A stretch of 64,000 nucleotides of DNA from Massilia sp. CF038 (GTDB lineage: Bacteria > Pseudomonadota > Gammaproteobacteria > Burkholderiales > Burkholderiaceae_D): the NCBI RefSeq assembly GCF_900129765.1, contig NZ_FQWU01000003.1, positions 372,001 through 436,000 on the forward strand. The letters are read 5' to 3'. Both the position numbers and the translations under genes were made by a program. Positions 11,234-39,611 of the stretch are shown here, piece after piece (the stretch's first letter is position 1; each line of letters begins with the position of its first letter). The notes under the pieces were generated by a model, which was given only the letters and a program-made list of their open reading frames with translations, did not search any database and was not told the DNA's origin.

Positions 11234-13204
11234 ATGCGTACTCGATTCCTGAAAACTGCAGCGCTGATGATCCTGGCCACGGCGTCCGCCTTTGCGCTGG
11301 CCGACGATCTGCCGACCCGGGTGGGACGCATTTCGCTGGTGCAGGGACAGGTCGGCATCAGCGCCGAACTGGGCGACGAGACCGAAACAGCCCTGGTCAA
11401 CTGGCCCGTTACCTCCAACAACCAGATTAGCACCGGGCGCGATTCGCGCACCGAAGTGCGGATCGGCTCGACCGCGCTGCGCCTGGACGCGGACACCTCG
11501 ATCGACGTCAATCAGCTGGAAGACAATGCCCTGCGCATCACGCTGCACTATGGCAGCCTGAGCATCCGGGTACGCAATGCCGAACTGGCGCAGGCGCTAG
11601 TGCTCGATACGCCCGAAGGCACGGTGCGCATGCAGGAGCCGGGCCGGATCCGGGTTGACGCCGGCCGCACCCAGGACACCACCACCCTGCGCGTGTTTGA
11701 TGGCGTGGCCTCGTTTGACGGCACCGGTTCGCGCCTGATCGTGCGGGCCGGCAAGCGCGCCGACATTGGCCGCGATGACCTGCGCACCGGCGTTGCCCTG
11801 CGCGACAGTTTTGATGAATGGGGCATGCTGCGCGACGCGCGCGATGAACGCTCCGAATCGGTGCGCTACGTGACCAGCGAAATGACCGGTTACGAAGACC
11901 TGGACCAGCATGGTGCCTGGAGCGAAGACCGTGAATATGGTCCAGTCTGGTATCCGCGTTCGGTGGCAGCTGGCTGGGTGCCTTACCGCGACGGCCGCTG
12001 GACCTATCTGCAACCGTGGGGCTGGACCTGGGTCGACAATTCTCCCTGGGGCTACGCGCCTTTCCATTACGGCCGCTGGGTCACCGTGGGCGGGCGCTGG
12101 TGCTGGTCGCCAGGGCGCAACGTGACGCGCGCAGTCTGGTCGCCAGCCCTGGTGGGCTGGGTGGGCGGCAACAACTGGAACGTGAGCTTCAATTCCGGCG
12201 GCAACCGGCGCGCTGCGCCAGCGACCGGCTGGTACCCGTTGACGCCGCGTGACACCTACGTGCCGACTTACCGCGTGAACCACGATAATCTGCGCTACCT
12301 GAACCGCAACGCCGGCGATGTGCGCGACGACATTCGGGGACGCAATCGTCCCAGCAACCGCCAGGTTGGCCTGACCGTGGTGCCGCATGATCAGTTCAGC
12401 CAGCGTGGCACCGTGGTGGTGCCGACTGCGCCGCGCGCCATTGTCTCGACATCGCTGCTGACCAATGTGCCGTCAGCGGTGCCGCCGGCACCGCAATACG
12501 CCGGCCGCCCGCGTGAACGGGGCGAGTGGCGTGGCCGCGACCGCGATGGTGACGGCCGTCCGGACCGCCGTTTCGAACGCGACGAGCGTGGCCAGGCGCC
12601 AGTCGGCTTGCAGACCGGGACGCCGGCGCCGCGGCCGTCCACCATTATTACCTTGCCGAGTCAGCCACAGCAGCCACAAGGCCAGGTCCAGGCGCCGCGG
12701 CGCTGGGGTGACGGACCAGATCCGATGCGCCGTGAAAACACCACGCATATGCCGACGCCAGCGCCTGCGTTGCCACCGCAAATGCAAACGCCGCCAGCGA
12801 GCCTGGGTACGCAACGCACCGAGCGCAACCCGCAGGCCGAGCCAGAGCGCGAGCGTCCCGCGCGCGGCCCCGGGTACTGGCCGCAGCAGCATACCCAGCG
12901 CCAGCCGCAGCAAGGGTTCCAGGTTCAGCAACCGCAGCCGCAAGCGCAGCCACAGCAGCGCGTGTATCAGCAGCCCCAGCCCGCGTTCCAGAGCGCGCCG
13001 CCGCAACGCAGCGCACCGCCATCAATGCCGCCGCCGCAGATGCAACAGCAGCAGGCGCCACAGCAGCAGTCGGCGCCGCGCCAGCAGGCACCTGCGCCCG
13101 TGGGACAGCAGCCTGCCGCCGAAAAACCGGCGCCGAGCTCGATTAACATCGGGATCGACGAAGGCCGCCGCCGTGGCATGCGCGACAGTAACGACCGGCG
13201 CTAG
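11234..13204 (+). CDS. FecR-domain/DUF6600 secreted protein with Pro/Gln-rich tail
   Basis: Exported protein of 656 residues. After a Sec signal peptide (about 1-23, cleaved near FALADD) there is a FecR-like beta region (about 30-180: RVGRISLVQGQVGI, STGRDSRTEVRIGSTALRL). Next comes a Trp/Tyr-rich DUF6600 region (about 225-340) with repeats such as WVPYRDGRWTYLQPWGWTWVD. The last 200 residues are very rich in Gln and Pro. The start ATG was chosen because it gives the signal peptide. Possibly a cell-surface or periplasmic structural protein; no enzyme motif is visible. A terminator follows. Confidence 0.8.
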   Translation: MRTRFLKTAALMILATASAFALADDLPTRVGRISLVQGQVGISAELGDETETALVNWPVTSNNQISTGRDSRTEVRIGSTALRLDADTSIDVNQLEDNALRITLHYGSLSIRVRNAELAQALVLDTPEGTVRMQEPGRIRVDAGRTQDTTTLRVFDGVASFDGTGSRLIVRAGKRADIGRDDLRTGVALRDSFDEWGMLRDARDERSESVRYVTSEMTGYEDLDQHGAWSEDREYGPVWYPRSVAAGWVPYRDGRWTYLQPWGWTWVDNSPWGYAPFHYGRWVTVGGRWCWSPGRNVTRAVWSPALVGWVGGNNWNVSFNSGGNRRAAPATGWYPLTPRDTYVPTYRVNHDNLRYLNRNAGDVRDDIRGRNRPSNRQVGLTVVPHDQFSQRGTVVVPTAPRAIVSTSLLTNVPSAVPPAPQYAGRPRERGEWRGRDRDGDGRPDRRFERDERGQAPVGLQTGTPAPRPSTIITLPSQPQQPQGQVQAPRRWGDGPDPMRRENTTHMPTPAPALPPQMQTPPASLGTQRTERNPQAEPERERPARGPGYWPQQHTQRQPQQGFQVQQPQPQAQPQQRVYQQPQPAFQSAPPQRSAPPSMPPPQMQQQQAPQQQSAPRQQAPAPVGQQPAAEKPAPSSINIGIDEGRRRGMRDSNDRR

Positions 13205-28556: not shown

Positions 28557-30578
28557 TCAGGCGGCTTTGAAGGCCAGCAGCGGCGCGCCGTCTGCGACCT
28601 GATCACCCACCTGGTACAAAATCTCTTCCACCAATCCGTCACCTGGCGCGGCGATGGTATGTTCCATCTTCATCGCTTCCATGATCACGAGCGGGTCGCC
28701 CTTCTTCACTTCCTGCCCTTTGGCCGCCAGTACCGCCACCACCTTGCCTGGCATGGGCGCGGTCAGGCGTCCGCCAGCCGCTTCCACTTCGCCGGCATGC
28801 GCCATCGGGTCATTGAAGGTGAGCGCAAAATGGCGGCCGCCAGTGAACACGTGGAACACGTCGCCGTCGCGGCGCACGGTGCCATGCAACGAGGTTGCGC
28901 CCAGCTTGATGGAAAGGTCAGCCCCATCGCGCGCGGTGACCGACAACTCCACGTCAATCCCGTTGACCGACAAATCCCAGCCATGCGGCCGGTAGGTCAG
29001 GCTGACTGCATAGGTTTTGTGCTCGTCGGCGAAACCGAGCTGGCGCTGGTAGGCGCTGTTCATGCGCCAGCCCAGCGCATTGCCCCATGGGTCGGCTGGA
29101 TTGGCCGATTGTGCCGCGGATGACGCTTTTTCTGCTTCGATCAGCGCCACCGCCGCCAGTGCCAGCGCGCCCACCGGTGCCGATTTCGGCGTCGGGAACA
29201 ATTCGTCGCTGTTACGCTCGATCAGACCTGTGTCCAGATCGGCGCTGGAAAACGCGCTGCCTTCCACCAGACGCTTAAGGAAGGCGATATTGCTGGCCAG
29301 GCCCACCAGCTGGAATTCGGCCAGCGCCTGCGACATGCGCGCGAGGGCCTGGTTGCGGTCCGCGCCCCACACGATCAGCTTGGCGATCATGGGGTCGTAG
29401 AACGGCGAAATGGCGTCGCCTTCGCGCACGCCCGAGTCGATACGCACCGCCGCCGGCGCACCTGGGGTGCCGCCCAGTTCAAAACTGACAGCCTGCGGCG
29501 TGCCCATATGGCGCAGCGTGCCGATCGAGGGCAGGAAGCCCTTCTCCGGATTTTCGGCATACACGCGCGCTTCAATCGCGTGGCCATTGATGGTCAGTTC
29601 CGACTGCATTTTTGGCAGCGGCTGGCCGGCGGCCACGCGCAACTGCCACTCCACCAGGTCGGTCCCGGTAATCATTTCCGTCACCGGGTGCTCCACCTGC
29701 AGACGCGTGTTCATCTCCATGAAGTAGAACGAGCCGTCCTGGTTGGCGATGAATTCCACGGTGCCGGCGCCCACGTAGCCCACCGCGCGCGCGGCGGCCA
29801 CTGCCGCTTCGCCCATGGCGGAGCGGCGTTCCGGCGTCATGCCCGGCGCTGGCGCTTCTTCCAGCACCTTCTGGTGGCGGCGCTGCACCGAGCAGTCGCG
29901 CTCGTGCAGGTAGACGCAGTTGCCACGCGTGTCGGCAAACACTTGAATCTCGATGTGGCGTGGGCGCTGCAGATATTTTTCGGCGAGGACCTTGTCGTCG
30001 CCAAAGGAGCTGATTGCTTCGCGCTTGCAGGAGGCCAGGGCTGCCTTGAAGTCCTCCGAGCGCTCGATCACGCGCATGCCCTTGCCGCCACCGCCAGCGG
30101 AGGCTTTCAGCAGAACCGGGTAGCCGATGCGGTCGCCCTGCTGCTGCAGGAAGTCCGGATCCTGGTTGTCGCCGTGGTAGCCAGGTACCAGCGGCACCTT
30201 GGCAGTTTCCATCAGCGATTTGGCGGCCGATTTGGAGCCCATGGCGCGCATGGCCGACGCTGGCGGGCCAATGAAGACCAGGCCCGCTTCGACGCAGGCG
30301 TCGGCAAATTCGGCATTCTCGGACAGGAAGCCGTAGCCCGGGTGAACCGCCTGGGCACCGGTGGCCAGTGCCACGGCGATGATGCGGTCGCCGCACAGAT
30401 AGCTCTCCTTGGCAGCTGCCGGACCAATGAGCACAGCTTCATCGCACACCGCCACATGTTTTGAATTCGCGTCTGCCTCCGAATACACGGCGACAGTCTT
30501 GATGCCCATGCGGCGCGCAGTGGCGGCCACACGGCAGGCGATTTCGCCACGGTTGGCGATGAGGATTTTTGTAAACAT
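28557..30578 (-). CDS. liuD: Methylcrotonyl-CoA carboxylase biotin-carrying alpha subunit
   Basis: Biotin-dependent subunit of 673 residues. The biotin carboxylase domain (about 1-450) starts FTKILIANRGEIACRV and has an ATP-binding Gly-rich loop (KASAGGGGKGMRV). A middle BT-type linker and a C-terminal biotinyl domain with EAMKMEHTI follow; the Lys is biotinylated. Together with LiuB it carboxylates 3-methylcrotonyl-CoA from leucine. Separated from bioB by 43 bp. A propionyl- or geranyl-CoA carboxylase subunit is an alternative, but the liuB/C/E context favours methylcrotonyl-CoA. Confidence 0.92.
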   Translation of the reverse strand: MFTKILIANRGEIACRVAATARRMGIKTVAVYSEADANSKHVAVCDEAVLIGPAAAKESYLCGDRIIAVALATGAQAVHPGYGFLSENAEFADACVEAGLVFIGPPASAMRAMGSKSAAKSLMETAKVPLVPGYHGDNQDPDFLQQQGDRIGYPVLLKASAGGGGKGMRVIERSEDFKAALASCKREAISSFGDDKVLAEKYLQRPRHIEIQVFADTRGNCVYLHERDCSVQRRHQKVLEEAPAPGMTPERRSAMGEAAVAAARAVGYVGAGTVEFIANQDGSFYFMEMNTRLQVEHPVTEMITGTDLVEWQLRVAAGQPLPKMQSELTINGHAIEARVYAENPEKGFLPSIGTLRHMGTPQAVSFELGGTPGAPAAVRIDSGVREGDAISPFYDPMIAKLIVWGADRNQALARMSQALAEFQLVGLASNIAFLKRLVEGSAFSSADLDTGLIERNSDELFPTPKSAPVGALALAAVALIEAEKASSAAQSANPADPWGNALGWRMNSAYQRQLGFADEHKTYAVSLTYRPHGWDLSVNGIDVELSVTARDGADLSIKLGATSLHGTVRRDGDVFHVFTGGRHFALTFNDPMAHAGEVEAAGGRLTAPMPGKVVAVLAAKGQEVKKGDPLVIMEAMKMEHTIAAPGDGLVEEILYQVGDQVADGAPLLAFKAA

Positions 30579-30621: not shown

Positions 30622-31662
30622 TCAGCCGCCGCAAGCCGCTTTTGGCGCCGAGTCCAGCGTGGCGGCGCGTGTTACCAGGCCCAGCTTGTTGAGCAGGGCG
30701 CGGTCGTCTTCGGCTTCCGGGTTGTCGGTAGTGAGCAGCTTGTCGCCGTAGAAGATGGAATTTGCGCCGGCCAGGAAGCACATGGCTTGCACGGCTTCGC
30801 CCATCTGGCGCCGTCCTGCCGACAGGCGCACGCGTGCCTGCGGCATGGTGATGCGGGCCACGGCGATGGTGCGCACGAATTCGAACGGGTCAAGCGGATC
30901 GAGGCCGTGCAGCGGCGTGCCTTCGACCTGCACCAGGTGATTGACCGGCACCGATTCCGGATACGGGTTCAGGTTGGCCAGCTGCGCGATCAGGCCGGCG
31001 CGCTGCAGGCGCGATTCGCCCATGCCGACGATGCCGCCACAGCAGACCTTCAGGCCGGCGCTGCGCACGCGGCCCAGGGTGTCGAGGCGGTCCTGGTATT
31101 CGCGGGTGGAGATCACGTTGTTGTAGAACTCGGGCGCGGTGTCCAGATTGTGGTTGTAGAAGTCCAGGCCCGCGTTTTTCAGACGGTCGGCCTGGCCTTC
31201 TTCCAGCATGCCCAGGGTGGCGCAGGTTTCCATGCCCAGCGCTTTGACTTCGCGCACCATCTCTTCGACCTTGTCCATGTCGCGCTCTTTCGGGCTGCGC
31301 CAGGCGGCGCCCATGCAAAAGCGCGTGGCGCCGTTGGCCTTGGCCTGCTTGGCCGCGTCAATCACGGTATCGATGTCGAGAATTTTTTTCGCTTCAACGC
31401 CGGTGTCGTAACGGGCCGCCTGCGGGCAGTAGCCGCAGTCTTCCTCGCAGCCGCCGGTCTTGATGGACAGCAGGGTCGCCAGTTCCACATCGCCGGCCGG
31501 GAAGTGCGCGCGGTGTACCGTTTGCGCCTTGAACATCAGGTCATTGAACGGCAGCTCGAACAGCGCCAGCACATCGGCCAGCGGCCAGGTGGCTGCCTCA
31601 GGCAGTTTGATGGCCGCGGCAGGCGGGTGGAAAGAGACGGCGGTAGTTTGAGACATGGTCAT
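30622..31662 (-). CDS. bioB: Biotin synthase BioB
   Basis: Radical-SAM enzyme of 346 residues that inserts sulfur into dethiobiotin. The SAM cluster motif is seen in [18 protein letters not shown] (C-x3-C-x2-C), and the [2Fe-2S]-related and substrate residues follow in YNHNLDT and RVRLSAGR. It is the last step of the pathway and the last bio gene here, 12 bp after bioD. The product serves the carboxylase subunit encoded next. Confidence 0.97.
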
Positions 31663-31674
31663 TCCTTCTGAGGG

Positions 31675-32460
31675 TCAGTCGCGCTTGGACGGCCAGCCTG
31701 GCAGTCCTGCGAGATCGATAAATTTTGCGGCTTCTGCGGCCGTTGCTTGTTCAAGGTAGGGGATGCGGCCCAGGAGCGGCGCCGGAATCCGTTGTTCGAG
31801 CGCGGCGACGTTTTCGTCGGCGAACTGCATGTCGGGATCGATTTCGTTGACCACCCAGCCGGCCAGCACCAGGTCGCGCGTGATGATCGCCTCGATGGTC
31901 AGCAGCGCGTGGCTGATGCATCCGAGGCGCAGGCCCACCACCAGGATCACCGGCAGATTGAGCTGTTCGGCCAGCTGGGCGCTGTCGAAATCGTCCGAGA
32001 ATGGCACCCGGAAGCCGCCCACGCCTTCGACCACCACCGCGTCGGAGGCGGCCGACACTTCGGCATAAGCTGCAATGATGGGCACCGCTTCAATGGTGAC
32101 ACCCTGGCGTGCGGCGGCAATGTGCGGGGCGCAGGCGTCGCGCAGCATGTAGGGTGTGGTGATATTGGCCGGCAGGTGGACATTGCCAGCGGCGATCAGC
32201 TGGTCGGCGTCTTCGTTGTGCAGTTCGCCGTCGCGCATGGCGGCACCCGCAGCCACCGGCTTCATGCCGCAGGCACGCACGCCGTTTTCCACCAGCGTGT
32301 GCAAAATCGCTGACGACACCAGCGTCTTGCCGATCTCGGTGTCAGTGCCAGTCACAAAGCAGGAGAAACGCATCGGCAGGCCTTCGGCAGCCAGTGCGGG
32401 CAGCGGTTCGACCACGGGCGTGGCGACGGCAAGCGGATCGACAGGATCGTTCAGACTCAT
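31675..32460 (-). CDS. bioD: Dethiobiotin synthetase BioD
   Basis: ATP-dependent ligase of 261 residues that forms the ureido ring of dethiobiotin from 7,8-diaminopelargonate and CO2. The P-loop [10 protein letters not shown] is at about 38-47, with substrate loops GMKPVAAG and [10 protein letters not shown]. It has an N-terminal extension of about 29 residues; an internal ATG (about 32373) would give the usual length. The longer start overlaps the bioF stop by 4 bp (ATGA), so it is likely used. Confidence 0.95.
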
Positions 32461-33641
32461 CGCAATTGCTCCAATTCGTTGATCGCGGCAGCGAGCTGCG
32501 CGACTTCTTCATGCGTGTGCGCAGCCGACAGTGTCACGCGCAGGCGCGCCGTTCCCGCCGGGACGGTGGGTGGGCGGATGGCCGGCACCCACAAGCCCAT
32601 GCCATACAAGCCGGCGCCAATGCGCAGCGCTTCTTCGTTGCTGCCAATGATGATGGGCTGGATCGCGGTGTCGGATTCCATCCGCTGCCAGCGCTTGAGT
32701 TTCAGTTCGTGGCCCAGCTGCGCCACCAGCGATTGCAGGTGGGCGCGGCGCGAAGCACCTTCGTCGCTGCCGATGATATCGATACTGGCCAGCAGGGCGT
32801 GCGCCAGCGCCGGTGGCGCGGCAGTGGTGTAAATGTAGGGGCGGCCGCGCTGGATCATGGTTTCGATCACGCTGGCATGGGCGGCCACAAAGGCACCGCC
32901 TACACCGGCAGCCTTGCCCAGGGTCCCCATGTAGACCAGGTTGGGCGAGCGCAGATTGAAGTGTTCGAGGGCGCCGCGGCCGTGGGCGCCCAGGGTGCCG
33001 AAGCCATGTGCGTCGTCGATCACCAGCCAGGCATTGTGCTGTTCGCACAGCGCCAGCAGCTGCGGCAAGGGCGCCAGGTCACCGTCCATGCTGAATACAC
33101 TGTCAGTCACCACCAGCTTGCTGGTGGCATTGCTGTTGGCCAGCAGCGCGCCCAGCGCTGTCAGATCAGCATGCGGATACACCTTGACGCTGGCGCGGGC
33201 CAGGCGGGCACCATCGATCAGCGAGGCGTGGTTGAGCGACTCGGAAAATATCTCGGCATCGCCATCCTGGCCCAGGGTGGTGAGGATCGCCAGATTGGCC
33301 ATGTAGCCGGTGCAGAACGACAGCGCGCGCGGGGCCACCAGATGGACGCCGACGAATTCGGCAAGGCGGTCTTCCAGCAGCTGGTGGGCCTGGGTGTGGC
33401 CGCTGATCAGGTGCGAGGCGCCGCTGCCGGCGCCATATAACGCGGCACCTTCGCGCAGCGCTTCGACCACGCGCGGATGCGCGGCCAGGCCCAGGTAATC
33501 GTTGCTGCAAAAGGCCAGCATGGGGCGTCCGCCCACCACCACGCGCGGCGCGCACGCCGTTTCCAGCACGCGCCGGTGGCGCGTGAGGCTTTGCTCGTCA
33601 AGTTCGGCCAGCTTGCGGTCGAGGGCGGCAATCATGTCCAT
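32457..33641 (-). CDS. bioF: 8-amino-7-oxononanoate synthase BioF
   Basis: PLP enzyme of 394 residues that condenses pimeloyl-ACP or pimeloyl-CoA with alanine. Features are [12 protein letters not shown] near the N-terminus, [11 protein letters not shown], the acid [10 protein letters not shown], and the PLP lysine in [14 protein letters not shown]. It overlaps bioD by 4 bp and the bioA stop by 1 base, so bioA-F-D are tightly coupled. No bioC or bioH is present in the window for the pimeloyl branch. Confidence 0.96.
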
Positions 33642-34972
33642 CAGGCGTTTCCGATCACCGATTCAAACACCATGCGGGTGCGCTCGGCCAGACCGGCCAT
33701 TTCGTCGTGGGACAGGATGTACGGCGGCATCAGGTAGACCGTGCGGCCAATGGGGCGCAGCAGCAGCTCGTTTTCCAGCGCGGCGCTGAAGAAGCGGCGC
33801 GAGAAGGTCGACGCGCGCGCCGCATCCGGCTCCACCGCGTCAAAGGCCCAGATCATGCCGGCCTGGCGGAAGTGGCGTACCCGTTCGTGCTGCGCCAATG
33901 GCGCCATGGCAGCGGTCAGGCTGGCGGCGCGCTGGCGGTTGTTGGCCAGCACGTTGTCGTCCTTGAATATCTGCAGGGTGGCCAGCGCGGCGCGGCAGGC
34001 CAGCGGATTGCCGGTATAGGAATGCGAATGCAGAAATCCGCGCGTGACATCCGCGCTGTAGAAAGCCTGGTAGACCTCGTCGCGCGTGAGCACCAGCGAA
34101 AGCGGGAGGTAGCCGCCACTGATGCCTTTCGACAGGCACAGGAAGTCGGGCCAGATGCCAGCCTGTTCGCAGGCGAAGAAGGTGCCGGTGCGGCCGCAGC
34201 CAACAGCGATTTCGTCGAGGATCAGATGCACGTCGTGGCGGTCGCACAGTTCGCGCACCAGCGTCAGGTACAGCGGATCGTGCATGGCCATGCCGGTGGC
34301 GCACTGCACCAGCGGCTCGATGATGATGGCGGCGATCTTGTCGGCCCGTTCCAGGAACAGGTTTTCCACATCTTTGGCGGCACGCCGTGCCACGTCCTGG
34401 GCGCTTTCGCCCTCGCCTGCCTGGCGCGCGTCGGGCGACATGACCACACGGGCGGCGCGCAGCAGCGGGCCGTAAGCATCCTTGAACAAGGCCACATCGG
34501 TCACGGCCAGCGCGCCGATGGTTTCGCCATGGTAGCTGCCTTTCAGGCAGACGAATTCCTGCTTGTCGGTGCGGCCCGAATTGCGCCACGCGTGAAAGCT
34601 CATCTTGAGGGCGATTTCCACCGCCGAGGCGCCGTCGGACGCGTAGAACGCGTGGCCGAGGGTGCGCCCGGTCATGTCGGACAGCTGCTCCGACAGGCGA
34701 ATCACCGGTTCGTGGGTGAAGCCGGCCAGCATGGCGTGTTCAAGGCGATCGAGCTGGTCCTTGAGGGCCGCATTGATGCGCGGGTTGGCGTGGCCGAACA
34801 GATTGACCCACCACGAACTGATGGCGTCCAGATAGCGCTTGCCTTCGTGGTCGTACAGCCAGGCGCCGCGGCCGTGGCTGACCGGAATCAGGGGCACGGT
34901 TTCGTGGTGCTGCATCTGCGTGCACGGATGCCATACGCTGCGCAGGCTGCGGTTGACCCAGTCTTGTGGCAT
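33641..34972 (-). CDS. bioA: Adenosylmethionine-8-amino-7-oxononanoate aminotransferase BioA
   Basis: PLP aminotransferase of 443 residues that makes 7,8-diaminopelargonate. [31 protein letters not shown] and the PLP lysine in [15 protein letters not shown] are diagnostic. The ATG at 34972, with an AAGG site, is chosen over an in-frame TTG at 34990. It is 14 bp after liuC, so the bio set follows the leucine genes without a promoter-sized gap. Confidence 0.96.
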
Positions 34973-34986
34973 GTTCGCCTTCAATC

Positions 34987-35772
34987 TCAATGCAGCCAGT
35001 TTGGCTTGCGCTTTTCGAGGAAGGAGGCCACGCCTTCGCGCCCTTCTTCCGACGAACGGATGTCGGCGATGCGCTCGGCCGTGTCGACTACGAGCGCGCT
35101 GTCGACGGTTTTGCCGCTCACGTCGCGCACCAGTACCTTGGCCTGACGTACCGCATTCGGGCTACTGGTGACCAGCGCCTTGACAATGCCAGCCACGGTC
35201 GCGTCAAGGACGTCGAGCGCCACCACTTCGTGCACGAAGCCGATGCGATGCGCTTCCTGGGCCGAAAATTTTTCCGCCGTCAGGAAATAGCGGCGCGCGG
35301 CGTTTTCGCCCATGGCCTTGATGACGTAAGGCGAAATGGTGGCCGGGATCAAGCCAAGCTTCACTTCCGACAGGCAGAAGGCGACGCCGCTGGCGGACAC
35401 CGCGATGTCGCAGGCCGCTACCAGGCCCATGCCGCCGGCGTAGCAATCGCCCTGCACCTTGGCGACCACCGGTTTCGGGCACAGGTAGATGGTGCGCAGC
35501 ATGTCGGCCAGCTTTTCGGCATCGTCGACATTTTCGGCGTAGGTGTAGCCGGCCATCTTCTTCATCCAGTTCAGATCGGCGCCGGCGCAGAAGGCCGGGC
35601 CTTTGGCTGCCAGCACAATGGCGCGCACCTCGGCGTTTTCGCCCAGGTCCTTGAAGGCCAGGCCCAGTTCAGCGATGGTGAATTCGTTAAATGCGTTGCG
35701 CACGTCCGGGCGATTGAGCGTGATGGTGGCCACACGCTCAACGATGTCGACGGTCAGGGTTTCAAATTGCAT
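34987..35772 (-). CDS. liuC: Methylglutaconyl-CoA hydratase (enoyl-CoA hydratase family)
   Basis: Crotonase-fold enzyme of 261 residues. The oxyanion-hole regions are KGPAFCAGADLNWMKKMA and GDCYAGGMGLVAACDIAV, and the hydratase acid pair lies around SEVKLGLIPATISPYV. In the liu pathway it converts 3-methylglutaconyl-CoA to HMG-CoA, between the LiuB/D carboxylase and LiuE. Its start is 9 bp after the liuB stop. Generic enoyl-CoA hydratase is the alternative name. Confidence 0.9.
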   Translation of the reverse strand: MQFETLTVDIVERVATITLNRPDVRNAFNEFTIAELGLAFKDLGENAEVRAIVLAAKGPAFCAGADLNWMKKMAGYTYAENVDDAEKLADMLRTIYLCPKPVVAKVQGDCYAGGMGLVAACDIAVSASGVAFCLSEVKLGLIPATISPYVIKAMGENAARRYFLTAEKFSAQEAHRIGFVHEVVALDVLDATVAGIVKALVTSSPNAVRQAKVLVRDVSGKTVDSALVVDTAERIADIRSSEEGREGVASFLEKRKPNWLH

Positions 35773-35781
35773 CGCAGCTCC

Positions 35782-37389
35782 TTACATGCGGAAGACACCG
35801 AACTTGGTGTCCTCGATTTCGGCGTTCAGCGCGGCCGACAGGCCCAGGCCCAGCACCATGCGGGTGTCGGCCGGATCGATCACGCCATCGTCCCACAGGC
35901 GCGCCGTGGCGTAATAGGGGTGGCCCTGGTGCTCGTATTGTTCCTTGATCGGCTGCTTGAAGGCGGCTTCTTCTTCGGCGCTCCACTGGCCGCCCTTGCC
36001 TTCGATGCCGTCGCGCTTGACGGTGGCCAGCACCGACGCGGCCTGGTCGCCGCCCATGACGGAAATGCGCGCGTTTGGCCACATCCACAAGAAGCGTGGC
36101 GAGAACGCGCGGCCGCACATGCCGTAGTTGCCGGCGCCGAAACTGCCACCGATGATGACCGTGAACTTCGGTACTGCGGCGGTGGCCACAGCGGTGACCA
36201 TCTTGGCGCCGTTGCGGGCGATGCCTTCGTTTTCGTATTTGCGGCCCACCATGAAGCCGGTGATATTTTGCAGGAACACCAGCGGGATCTTGCGCTGGCA
36301 GCACAGCTCGATGAAGTGGGTGCCCTTGAGCGCCGACTCCGAGAACAGAATGCCGTTGTTGGCGATGATGCCGACCTTGACCCCGTAGATGTGGGCAAAG
36401 CCGCAGATCAGGGTGGTGCCGTAACGGGCCTTGAATTCATCGAATTCGCTGCCGTCGACAATGCGGGCGATCACTTCGCGCACATCGAAGGGCTTGCGCG
36501 TGTCCACGGGGATCACGCCATACAGCTCTTGCGGCGCGTATTTCGGTTCGATCGATTCACGCAGGGCCATTTGCTGCGGCTTGGTGCGGTTCAGATTCGA
36601 CACAATGGTGCGCGCCAGCGACAGCGCGTGCAGGTCGTTCTGGGCCAGGTGGTCAACCACGCCCGACAGGCGGGTGTGCACGTCGCCGCCGCCCAGGTCT
36701 TCTGCGGTGACCACTTCGCCGGTGGCCGCTTTCACCAGCGGCGGGCCGCCCAGGAAGATGGTGCCTTGTTCCTTGACGATGATCGATTCGTCGCTCATGG
36801 CCGGCACATAGGCGCCGCCGGCAGTGCAGGAGCCCATGACCACGGCGATTTGCGGAATGCCCTTGGCCGACAAATTAGCCTGGTTGAAGAAGATGCGGCC
36901 GAAATGGTCGCGGTCGGGGAAGACGTCGTCCTGGTTGGGCAGGTTGGCGCCGCCCGAGTCGACCAGGTAGATACATGGCAGATTGTTCTGGTCCGCGATT
37001 TCCTGGGCGCGCAGGTGCTTCTTGACCGTCATCGGATAGTAGGTACCGCCCTTGACGGTTGCGTCGTTACAGACGATCACGCATTCCTGGCCCGAGACAC
37101 GGCCGATGCCGGTGATGATGCCCGCAGCTGGCGCGGCGCCTTCGTACATATCGTAGGCGGCCAGCTGGGAAAACTCGAGGAAAGGCGTGCCGGGATCGAG
37201 CAGCATCTGGACCCGGTCGCGCGGCAGCAGCTTGCCGCGTGCGACATGCTTGGCGCTGGCAGCGGCGCCACCACCGGCGGCCATGGCAGCGACCTTGGCG
37301 TGCAGGTCGTCGACCACGCTTTGCATGGCTGCCACGTTGGCCTTGAAGTCATCGCTGCGCGGATTGAGTTTGCTGTCGATTTGAGGCAT
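35782..37389 (-). CDS. liuB: Methylcrotonyl-CoA carboxylase carboxyltransferase beta subunit
   Basis: Carboxyltransferase of 535 residues, the partner of LiuD. The two crotonase-like halves are visible: [20 protein letters not shown] and [16 protein letters not shown] in the first, and [20 protein letters not shown] and [16 protein letters not shown] in the second, typical of MccB. It transfers CO2 from biotin to methylcrotonyl-CoA. Its start is 8 bp after ychJ, so its own promoter, if any, lies inside ychJ. Confidence 0.95.
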
Positions 37390-37397
37390 TGCGATCC

Positions 37398-37826
37398 TTA
37401 TTTGTCCGGGAAACTGCCGTCCAGGTAAAACCAGCGCGCCACCCCGTCGGCCGGCTCGCGCACGAAGCGGCTGAGCTCGTGCAAGCGATGGGCACGTCCG
37501 TTGATCTTGTAGCGGGCGACGAATTCTACGGTATCGGCGTCTTGATTTTCTGGCAATTCTGCTTTACGTTGACGTAAACGTAAAGCAGATTTTACCTCAA
37601 GTCCGAGCCACTGCAATGCCTCGTTTTCCTGCACGATGGGCTCGTTTGGCAGGGTGCTGGGATGCCAGGTGGCGCGCAGATAGGCTTCATTGCGCTGGGT
37701 ATAGGCGGTATAGCGCGAACGCATCAGCGCTTCGGCGGTTGCGGGCACGGCTTGCCCTGCGAGGTAAGGGCCGCAGCAGGCGGCAAGCGAAGTGCCGCCG
37801 CAGGGGCAGGTGGCTGGTGCTGGCAT
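37398..37826 (-). CDS. ychJ: YchJ-family SEC-C motif protein
   Basis: Protein of 142 residues with an N-terminal SEC-C-type zinc motif ([16 protein letters not shown]), a short [10 protein letters not shown] segment and a C-terminal domain typical of YchJ ([27 protein letters not shown]). Function is unknown; metal-dependent binding is likely. A perfect palindrome within its coding part (37558-37589) forces TTA, CGT and AAA codons that are AT-richer than the surroundings, so that DNA probably has a second role. Confidence 0.85.
37558..37589. promoter_or_regulatory. Perfect 13+6+13 palindrome in ychJ, candidate operator of the liu/bio array
   Basis: Arms 37558-37570 and 37577-37589 are exact reverse complements around a 6-base centre, including TTTACGTTGACGTAAA. 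This resembles, as I remember them, the MerR-family LiuR sites that control leucine-degradation genes. It lies 169 bp before the liuB start. On the minus strand a -35-like TTTACG and -10-like CAGAAT could flank its dyad. It is unusually AT-rich for this region. Confidence 0.5.
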
Positions 37827-37907
37827 GGCGGTCTGGCAAAAAAGGAATCCGGCAATTATCCGCCAAATCCGCCATGCGCGAGGGGAGCGATGCGCTTATC
37901 GCGCCAA

Positions 37908-38315
37908 TCAGATGAAGCGGCGCAGGAAGCTGAGGCCGCCAAGCGCGGCAAGTGCTGCCAGAATCCCGTAGTGGTTCCAGAAACTGCGTTGGGTATTCTT
38001 GAAAGCGTAGGCGGGATCGCCGCGCAGTTTGCTGGCCACGGCAGCTGGCAGGTCCGCGTAGCTGTCCTGGGCGGAAACGGCCACCAGGCTGCAGTTCCAG
38101 GTCCAGATGTCGGCCCAGAACAGGCCAAAGTGATCGCATTTGTAGCCAGCCTTGTAGCTGTTCAAATCACGGTATTCGCTGACCATCTCGGCAGGAAACG
38201 GTGCTACTTCAAACAGTTCGGAGCCGGTATTAAACAGAAGGAAGCCCTTGGCCTGGGCGGGCAGGCAGAACAGCATGGCGAGAATGCTTGCGAAAACGAA
38301 ATTTCTAATTTTCAT
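37908..38315 (-). CDS. Hypothetical exported protein with C-terminal anchor
   Basis: Protein of 135 residues, not assigned. A signal peptide (about 1-22, cleaved near AQAKG) is followed by a small domain with two Cys (GYKCDHFGLFW and WTWNCSLV) and several Trp residues. A C-terminal hydrophobic helix ending in Arg (GGLSFLRRFI) follows. It is separated by 81 bp from ychJ. Confidence 0.6.
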   Translation of the reverse strand: MKIRNFVFASILAMLFCLPAQAKGFLLFNTGSELFEVAPFPAEMVSEYRDLNSYKAGYKCDHFGLFWADIWTWNCSLVAVSAQDSYADLPAAVASKLRGDPAYAFKNTQRSFWNHYGILAALAALGGLSFLRRFI

Positions 38316-38423
38316 GGGAACGATTCGTTGTATTGACGGAAGGCTACTGTAACCGAAATTTCAACGAATATGGTATTTTGACCAACATACAACAATGCAA
38401 CATTTCCTACTGGACAGGGTTGT

Positions 38424-39611
38424 TCAATCATGCATGATGGCTGCCAGCTTTCGCGCCGCGCCGCAGGCAAAAGTAAATCCCAGCGGTCCATGTCCCACGT
38501 TCAGCCACAGGTTGGCATAGCGGCTGGCGCCAATCAGCGGCGCCCCGCTGGGCGTCGATGGCCGCAGCCCGGCCCAGGTGGCAAGCTGGGCATAGTCGGC
38601 CGCTTGCGGCATGGTGGCGCGCACCTGGCGCAGCAAGCCCTGAACCCGCGCCGCGTCAAGCGTCAGATTCTCGCCTACCAGATCGGCCATCGCGGCAACA
38701 CGCAGTCGTTCGCCAATGCGCGCGTACAGGATTTTGCGTTCGAAATCGGTCACGCTGACCTGTGGCGCCAGATCGCCGCTGCGGATCGGTGCGGTCAGAC
38801 TGTAGCCCTTGACCGGATACAGAGGCAGCCGGATATCCGCCGTGGCCGCCAGATCGCGGCTGGCAATACCGGCGGCCAGCACATAATGGTCGGCGACCAG
38901 GCGGCCCGCGGCCGTGGCCACCCCTGTGACCTTGCCGCGCGCCCGCTCAAGCTGGTGCGCAGCGCCCGTGACGCGCGCTTGAAAGCGGGGATGCTGGGCA
39001 ATGCGGCGCATCAATGCTTCGCAAAAGGCATGACAATCGGCCACCGCCTCGCCCGGATTGAAGATGCCGCCGGCCAGTGCCGCTTCCACGTGCGCCAGGG
39101 CTGGCTCGCAGCGCACGCATTGCGCCGGTGACAGGAGCTGACCCGCATCCGGTCTGGCGACGGCCACGTCGAGTGCGGGACGCGAGCGATAGATGATCAG
39201 CTTGCCTGCTTCGCGCCAGCTGAATTCCTCTTGCGGAATGGCCAGTTCCGCCATGGCCTGGCGGCTCGCTTCGCCCAGTTCAAGCAGGTGGGCGGTGGTT
39301 GCACTGTTGGCGGCGGCATTGCAGTGCGCCAGAAAACTGGCCAGCCAGCGCCATTGGCGCAAGTCCAGTTCGGGCCGAAAACGCAGCGGCGCATCCTGCT
39401 GGAACATCCAGTGCAGGGCCTTGAGCGGCACGCCAGCGTCGGCCAGGGGCGACACGTAGCGGTAGCTGAGCTGGCCGCCGTTGGCGTAGCTGGCGCCGTT
39501 GCCGACCTGGACTTCGCGTTCCAGCAGAGTGACGCCAAATCCCGCCTCAAGCAGCCACCAGGCCGAGGTCAGGCCAATCACGCCACCGCCAATGACAAGT
39601 ACGTGCTGCAT
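38424..39611 (-). CDS. dadA: D-amino-acid dehydrogenase (DadA family)
   Basis: FAD-dependent oxidoreductase of 395 residues. The dinucleotide motif VIGGGVIGLTSAWWLLEAG is at the N-terminus, and SYANGGQLSYRYVSPLADAG after it is the DadA substrate-pocket signature. The enzyme oxidises D-amino acids such as D-alanine and passes electrons to the respiratory chain. It is divergent from the GntR regulator gene. Since D-alanine is released by the wall-salvage genes across the shared promoter region, a functional link is plausible. Confidence 0.88.
   Translation of the reverse strand: MQHVLVIGGGVIGLTSAWWLLEAGFGVTLLEREVQVGNGASYANGGQLSYRYVSPLADAGVPLKALHWMFQQDAPLRFRPELDLRQWRWLASFLAHCNAAANSATTAHLLELGEASRQAMAELAIPQEEFSWREAGKLIIYRSRPALDVAVARPDAGQLLSPAQCVRCEPALAHVEAALAGGIFNPGEAVADCHAFCEALMRRIAQHPRFQARVTGAAHQLERARGKVTGVATAAGRLVADHYVLAAGIASRDLAATADIRLPLYPVKGYSLTAPIRSGDLAPQVSVTDFERKILYARIGERLRVAAMADLVGENLTLDAARVQGLLRQVRATMPQAADYAQLATWAGLRPSTPSGAPLIGASRYANLWLNVGHGPLGFTFACGAARKLAAIMHD

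Follow-up and report, generated by a model that had tools for sequence, protein, structure and literature searches.

An exact palindrome inside the ychJ gene of Massilia sp. CF038 is probably an operator of the MerR-family protein LiuR, which regulates branched-chain amino acid catabolism. The operator would be accompanied by an internal promoter that faces liuBC-bioAFDB-liuD and be maintained by selection on the DNA itself. The components of this reading, which is built on sequence comparison, differ in strength. We hold with great confidence that a LiuR-type operator lies within ychJ under DNA-level selection, and it is very likely that this box controls the genes from liuB onward. A first-pass annotation of the 64,000-nucleotide stretch of DNA analysed here (the window) had read the palindrome as a candidate control site for liuB onward, a suggestion that our computational analysis supports. 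The features discussed are collected in Table 1.

Table 1. Features of the ychJ-liuB region and exact LiuR-type sites in the genome (window positions unless a locus is named)
Feature	Position	Strand	Basis or remark
ychJ, 142 aa	37398..37826	-	Pfam YchJ_M-like; box = codons 82-88 plus last base of codon 81
Palindrome, 13-bp arms around 6 bases	37558..37589	.	outer arms vary among relatives
LiuR box, 22 bp	37563..37584	-	sense TTTACGTTTACGTCAACGTAAA; exact pattern matches, in-frame conservation
Candidate -10 element TAAAAT	37589..37594	-	4 bp 5' of box, liuB strand
Exact-site place 1, ychJ/liuB	37563-37584	-	exact genome scan
Exact-site place 2, between liuA and neighbouring MerR-type liuR	L007		exact genome scan
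Exact-site place 3, upstream of liuR	L007		exact genome scan
Exact-site place 4, upstream of icmF	L008		NCBIfam IsobCoAmut_IcmF above cut-off
Exact-site place 5, upstream of short-chain dehydrogenase	L009		SDR domains
liuB, carboxyltransferase subunit, first after ychJ	35782..37389	-	Carboxyl_trans domain
liuC, enoyl-CoA hydratase family	34987..35772	-	domain scan, relatives
bioA, presumed same transcription unit as liuB	33641..34990	-	putative name from sequence
bioF, presumed same transcription unit as liuB	32457..33641	-	putative name from sequence
bioD, presumed same transcription unit as liuB	31675..32460	-	putative name from sequence
bioB, presumed same transcription unit as liuB	30622..31662	-	putative name from sequence
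liuD, biotin-carboxylase/biotin-carrier subunit	28557..30578	-	BT_MCC_alpha and biotin carboxylase domains

The palindrome and the LiuR motif

On the + strand, positions 37558-37589 read TCTGCTTTACGTT-GACGTA-AACGTAAAGCAGA, an exact inverted repeat with 13-bp arms and 6 bases between them, as the first-pass annotation had described; a mismatch-tolerant search extends the repeat to 37555-37592. The distances given there also hold: the palindrome, which sits within the minus-strand gene ychJ, stops 169 bp short of the liuB start at 37389, and a gap of 8 bp separates the two genes. The conserved unit, rather than the full arms, is the 22-bp LiuR box, in which two 16-bp LiuR-type sites, each a copy of TTNACGTNNACGTNAA, overlap with a shift of 6 bp. 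Its core on the sense strand is TTTACG TTTACG TCAACG TAAA, which coincides with the ychJ codons TTA CGT TTA CGT CAA CGT AAA.

The pattern TTNACGTNNACGTNAA combines the assumed general form of a LiuR site with the sites seen in this genome, and we base its link with LiuR on co-occurrence across the family and not on the assumed consensus. In the 5.66-Mb genome it has six exact sites in five places (two of the sites overlap at ychJ), against one site for the reversed pattern. This excess, an RNA fold z of -6.5 and the presence of the 22-bp core in seven genera place the palindrome beyond chance. Support from a genome-wide motif scan, which the first-pass annotation had looked for, is provided by the exact matches at liuA, liuR, icmF and the short-chain dehydrogenase gene, but not by matches with one mismatch, which stand at background (22 versus 21 for the reversed control in this genome). 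As these are no more frequent than in the control, only exact sites were used. The one-mismatch matches fall in 16 places, three of which overlap exact sites; of the other 13, the six examined (L002, L004, L016, L017, L019, L022) all lie within long reading frames and none is ahead of a recognised branched-chain gene. The particular 16-mer named in the annotation occurs exactly once in the genome.

The regulator gene that the annotation had anticipated is present: a MerR-family gene (L007, 9516-9932, minus strand; MerR_1, E 9.5e-17) adjoins liuA. We call it liuR, a putative name, from its context, its protein having matched no LiuR-specific model. The liuA product has acyl-CoA dehydrogenase domains and is, by context, presumably the isovaleryl-CoA enzyme; the short-chain dehydrogenase at L009 is putatively a 3-hydroxyacyl-CoA enzyme. 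In L007 (5131-8146), as in many related clusters, a putative aceK-like gene lies between liuA and a thiolase gene.

Across 59 genomes of the family, the exact pattern is present in all 43 that have a LiuR orthologue (E below 1e-20) and in one of the 16 that lack one, so that, with this single exception, the site is restricted to regulator-bearing genomes (Fisher P = 4e-13, uncorrected for the relatedness of the genomes). The 43 genomes hold 213 sites against 30 for the control, and the 16 hold the one site (control 9). The annotation's guess that this is a LiuR site is thus borne out to the extent that motif and LiuR orthologue go together across the family, and the exact sites at liuA and liuR agree with that guess.

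Conservation of the box within ychJ

A ychJ match was found in 233 of 244 family genomes, 110 of which were read, mostly from the top of the list; the remaining 123 ychJ-positive genomes, outside the sample, include members of box-bearing genera. We examined 134 stretches (133 loci and the window, with L105 and L118 added from a genus search), 132 of which yielded ychJ, start codons being chosen nearest to the homologous start. No ychJ match was found at L036 and L037. L118, from a genome 48% complete and at the same place as L119, was dropped, as its ychJ frame, box included, continues into liuB. At L053 the box follows the ychJ stop and is not intragenic. Two genomes, G005 and G094, were left uncounted because they have no real ychJ match and a partial liuB (residues 126-535, at the contig's first bases, and residues 54-535, respectively), which we read as assembly gaps.

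Of the 132 ychJ genes, 88 carry the box within the coding sequence, always in the same reading frame and across seven genera; these loci, which may include repeats of the same species, represent 85 distinct genes. They come from genera g1, g2, g4, g6, g10, g16 and g37, from 11 named loci (Massilia, Janthinobacterium, Duganella, Rugamonas and Pseudoduganella) and from the window. No ychJ read from the seven genera is without the box, many of their genomes being outside the sample. The 42 genes without it comprise 35 from other genera of the family and seven named loci, which include two from Herbaspirillum and one from Herminiimonas. In 22 of these 42, liuB is likewise no more than 84 bp away, so the box is a feature of the clade and not simply tied to adjacency of ychJ and liuB. 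Conservation in related ychJ-liuB loci, on which the first-pass annotation had staked its reading, therefore holds within the clade but not at those 22.

Within the clade, the codons of the box are nearly fixed. Both Leu positions are TTA in 85 of 85 genes, when TTA makes up 2.3% of the Leu codons elsewhere in the same genes, and the three Arg positions are CGT in 85, 85 and 84 (one CGC), compared with 11.4% of Arg codons elsewhere. Codon 5 of the box is CAA (72 genes) or AAA (13), and codon 7 is AAA (76), CAA (8) or AAT (1). Lys and Gln trade places between lineages (LRLRQRK/LRLRKRQ), such that the half-sites move and the peptide changes while the DNA pattern stays. The conserved letters thus appear to be kept by selection on the DNA, with rare codons forced on YchJ, and the earlier suspicion to this effect, raised from the rare codons of one gene, is upheld by their invariance in 85. 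Unusual synonymous conservation is also seen in ychJ codons 75-81 (GGA CTT GAG GTA AAA TCT GCT; window 37584-37604, minus strand), reaching about 20 bp 5' of the box and past the -10-like hexamer.

At the protein level, the residues of the box are an insertion that is absent from the 42 aligned YchJ sequences without the box; in all 35 of those from other family genera, the columns of residues 83-87 are gaps. In a structure model of the window's YchJ (mean pLDDT 84.8), residues 84-92 lie between the two strands of a beta hairpin and are the sole segment of at least three residues with pLDDT below 50. Upstream of ychJ, a reading frame of 135 aa (window 37908-38315, minus strand) matched neither Pfam nor NCBIfam at E 0.001.

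Candidate promoter and alternative readings

Control of liuB onward through an internal promoter in ychJ is, in our judgement, fairly likely. In the 85 box-bearing genes, the hexamer 4 bp before the box is TAAAAT in 69, TTAAAT in 7, TAAAAA in 6 and TAGAAT in 3, and TAAAAT is retained whether the codon concerned is GTA (Val) or ATA (Ile); the 35 box-less relatives within the family mostly have GTG or ATC at that Val/Ile codon. A similar layout is found in front of liuR itself: of 17 upstream regions from the family, counted by eye and with one place listed twice, 11 have TACAAT or TAAAAT exactly 4 bp before the box, three have TACAAT at 2-3 bp, one has CACAAT and two have neither. It is absent from five liuR upstream regions from outside the family. 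The spacing between the -10 element and the box can vary, as the ychJ of genome G062 (L250/L251, G062:C11), which is not among the 88, has an extra Leu-Arg pair that places the box 6 bp further from TAAAAT.

No conserved -35 element was found. The most frequent top-scoring hexamers 15-19 bp ahead of TAAAAT agree with a -35 at 2-4 of 6 positions and are not shared across the genes, and a consensus scan of the liuB strand over 37300-38450 returned no sigma-70 promoter. At liuA, by eye, the box overlaps the -35 element, a half-site serving as the -35, with a TATGAT-like hexamer 17 bp further on in 9 of 14 rows; the same layout was tried on ychJ and rejected, as by eye it is not conserved there. 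Because TAAAAT is kept through the codon change and the layout matches that of the liuR promoter, we prefer to see here a -10 element followed by an operator that covers the transcription start.

A serious alternative for the mechanism, if an unlikely one, is that ychJ contains a LiuR operator with no promoter, and that bound LiuR acts as a roadblock to RNA polymerase arriving from upstream, making read-through to liuB dependent on LiuR. This would agree with the lack of a -35 element at ychJ and with the g10 cluster, which is contiguous and in which read-through from liuA could be the target. However, it does not explain why a TAAAAT at the distance typical of family liuR promoters should persist through Val/Ile changes, and in the split clusters neither liuA nor an exact LiuR box is seen upstream of ychJ in the stretch read.

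It is very improbable that the selected feature is an RNA hairpin (an attenuator, a processing site or a terminator for the antisense strand) rather than a protein-binding site. The window's sense strand does fold well (-23.1 kcal/mol, z -6.5), and on the + strand the repeat is followed by TTTT and has a terminator-like score, the three such matches in the region being within the range of the shuffles (1.8, sd 1.4). Nevertheless, all 13 arm pairs are intact in only 34 of the 85 distinct genes, the outer pairs being broken in the remainder, and this failure to keep the outer pairs led us to reject a hairpin or terminator. Additionally, the main form with swapped half-sites (seven genes) has a mean fold of -11.2 kcal/mol, compared with -18.9 for the common form, yet retains the LiuR pattern; the motif also tracks liuR and is intergenic at other liu genes.

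There is a slighter chance still that the box is an inert intragenic match. Most intragenic PhoB sites in E. coli are reported to be inert and little conserved, with three conserved in about half of the species examined (PMC10294691). The ychJ box resembles these in being a transcription factor site within a gene, but differs from them, as they are described there, in its strict conservation in the clade, which extends to synonymous positions in seven genera, and the next gene downstream of it is liuB itself or, in g10, a CoA-ligase-like gene with liuB behind it. Least probable of all is selection on the YchJ peptide with the DNA pattern as a by-product: LRLRQRK is nearly invariant in the clade, but we reject this reading on the invariance of the rare codons in 85 genes despite abundant synonymous choices, to which can be added the exchange of Q and K along with the half-sites, the absence of the peptide from 42 box-less YchJ sequences, its location in a low-confidence loop and the identical DNA pattern in non-coding DNA at other liu genes.

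Proposed history of the cluster and the place of biotin synthesis

The names liuB and liuC are assigned from context, and those of bioA, bioF, bioD and bioB are putative, assigned from sequence. These four bio genes lie between liuC and liuD (window 30622-34990, minus strand), and some or all of them are likewise within the cluster in most relatives read at length. Biotin synthesis therefore sits in a leucine-degradation cluster whose carboxylase needs biotin.

Gene order was read in 20 long loci and two Herbaspirillum loci, leaving out matches below 40% coverage or 38% identity. Ten ychJ-liuB clusters that lack the ychJ box were followed over long stretches. In eight of them a LiuR box ahead of liuA stands before the cluster as a whole, which has the contiguous order liuR-box-liuA-(aceK)-thiolase-ychJ-liuB and no box in ychJ (eight loci, from g23, g29, g20, g3, g30 and Herbaspirillum L033, the last assigned as contiguous as far as its matches show). 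The other two (g17, g35) have neither liuR nor any box, and an eleventh (L034) ends before liuA. In g25 and g12, a putative AMP-binding, CoA-ligase-like gene separates ychJ from liuB, and a box is present ahead of liuR but not in ychJ; at one g27 locus no liuR, liuB or box was found. The three g10 loci combine a contiguous cluster and a box in ychJ with the CoA-ligase-like gene between ychJ and liuB. In g1, g2, g16, g37 and the window, ychJ with its box adjoins liuB, with no liuA within the stretch read; in the genome of Massilia sp. CF038, about 31 kb lies between the thiolase gene and ychJ, which share a strand. The cluster is split in this lineage, where the site close to liuB is the one in ychJ.

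LiuR control of liuB seems to be placed in more than one way. At a g20 locus (L234), ychJ and liuB are about 2 kb from each other, with a LiuR box (12229-12244) directly before liuB. Among 80 liuB loci, the box is outside ychJ in seven, starting 53-101 bp before liuB, and inside ychJ in 11; the other 62 have no box within 1 kb before liuB, some of these stretches being shorter upstream. In a LiuB tree, the 19 box-bearing loci fall in three groups (three changes), and a single clade for them is not rejected (p-AU 0.275). The simplest order of events would have ychJ acquire the box first and the cluster split afterwards.

In the sequence of steps that we infer, the box would have arisen as, or together with, a short insertion in the YchJ loop, probably while the liu cluster was contiguous, and in Massilia, Janthinobacterium and Duganella a later split of the cluster would have left it as the LiuR site of ychJ-liuB-liuC-bioAFDB-liuD. 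An internal promoter in ychJ, with TAAAAT 4 bp 5' of the box, would start transcription toward liuB, and LiuR on the box would, in the manner proposed for the promoter of liuR itself, keep it blocked for as long as no catabolic intermediate is available. The order of events, LiuR binding, the transcription start, promoter activity, repression and the ligand are all predicted here from comparison of genomes.

The original paper on the LiuR regulon is reportedly that of Kazakov in 2009. In common with the known LiuR system, the ychJ box has the pattern found at liuA and liuR of this genome, a MerR-family liuR gene is present and the targets are branched-chain catabolic genes; the difference is that the site is not in an intergenic promoter but inside the coding sequence that precedes liuB, in an in-frame insertion. 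Among the literature matches listed, titles and the beginnings of abstracts report no LiuR site in ychJ. In Shewanella, one study describes LiuR as a MerR-family repressor of Ile/Leu/Val use (PMC3223726). A parallel in position is offered by the conserved intragenic sigma-54 promoters of E. coli, for example that in nagB for nagE (PMC4591121), which are also regulatory DNA in a gene, facing a downstream gene and conserved across species. Unlike those promoters as described there, the ychJ site is a predicted operator, is conserved at synonymous positions and comes with extra residues in its host protein.

We give an even chance to the full historical proposition, in which the operator came into ychJ by way of an in-frame insertion that predates the break-up of the operon, determines seven residues in a YchJ loop and brings the bio genes under LiuR. 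If this is true, the separation of ychJ-liuB-bio-liuD from liuR-liuA would have left LiuR control intact, because the box was already in ychJ. Many sites that mapped factors have within genes look inert. The ychJ box gives a clear example from bacteria of operator-like DNA that appears to take precedence over codon usage and coincides with added residues in an unrelated protein, and it offers a natural comparison of lineages in which the box was gained and the cluster split. The genes for biotin synthesis would, on this proposition, come under the regulator of leucine catabolism, and we predict that they follow leucine catabolism in these bacteria, whose carboxylase LiuBD needs biotin.
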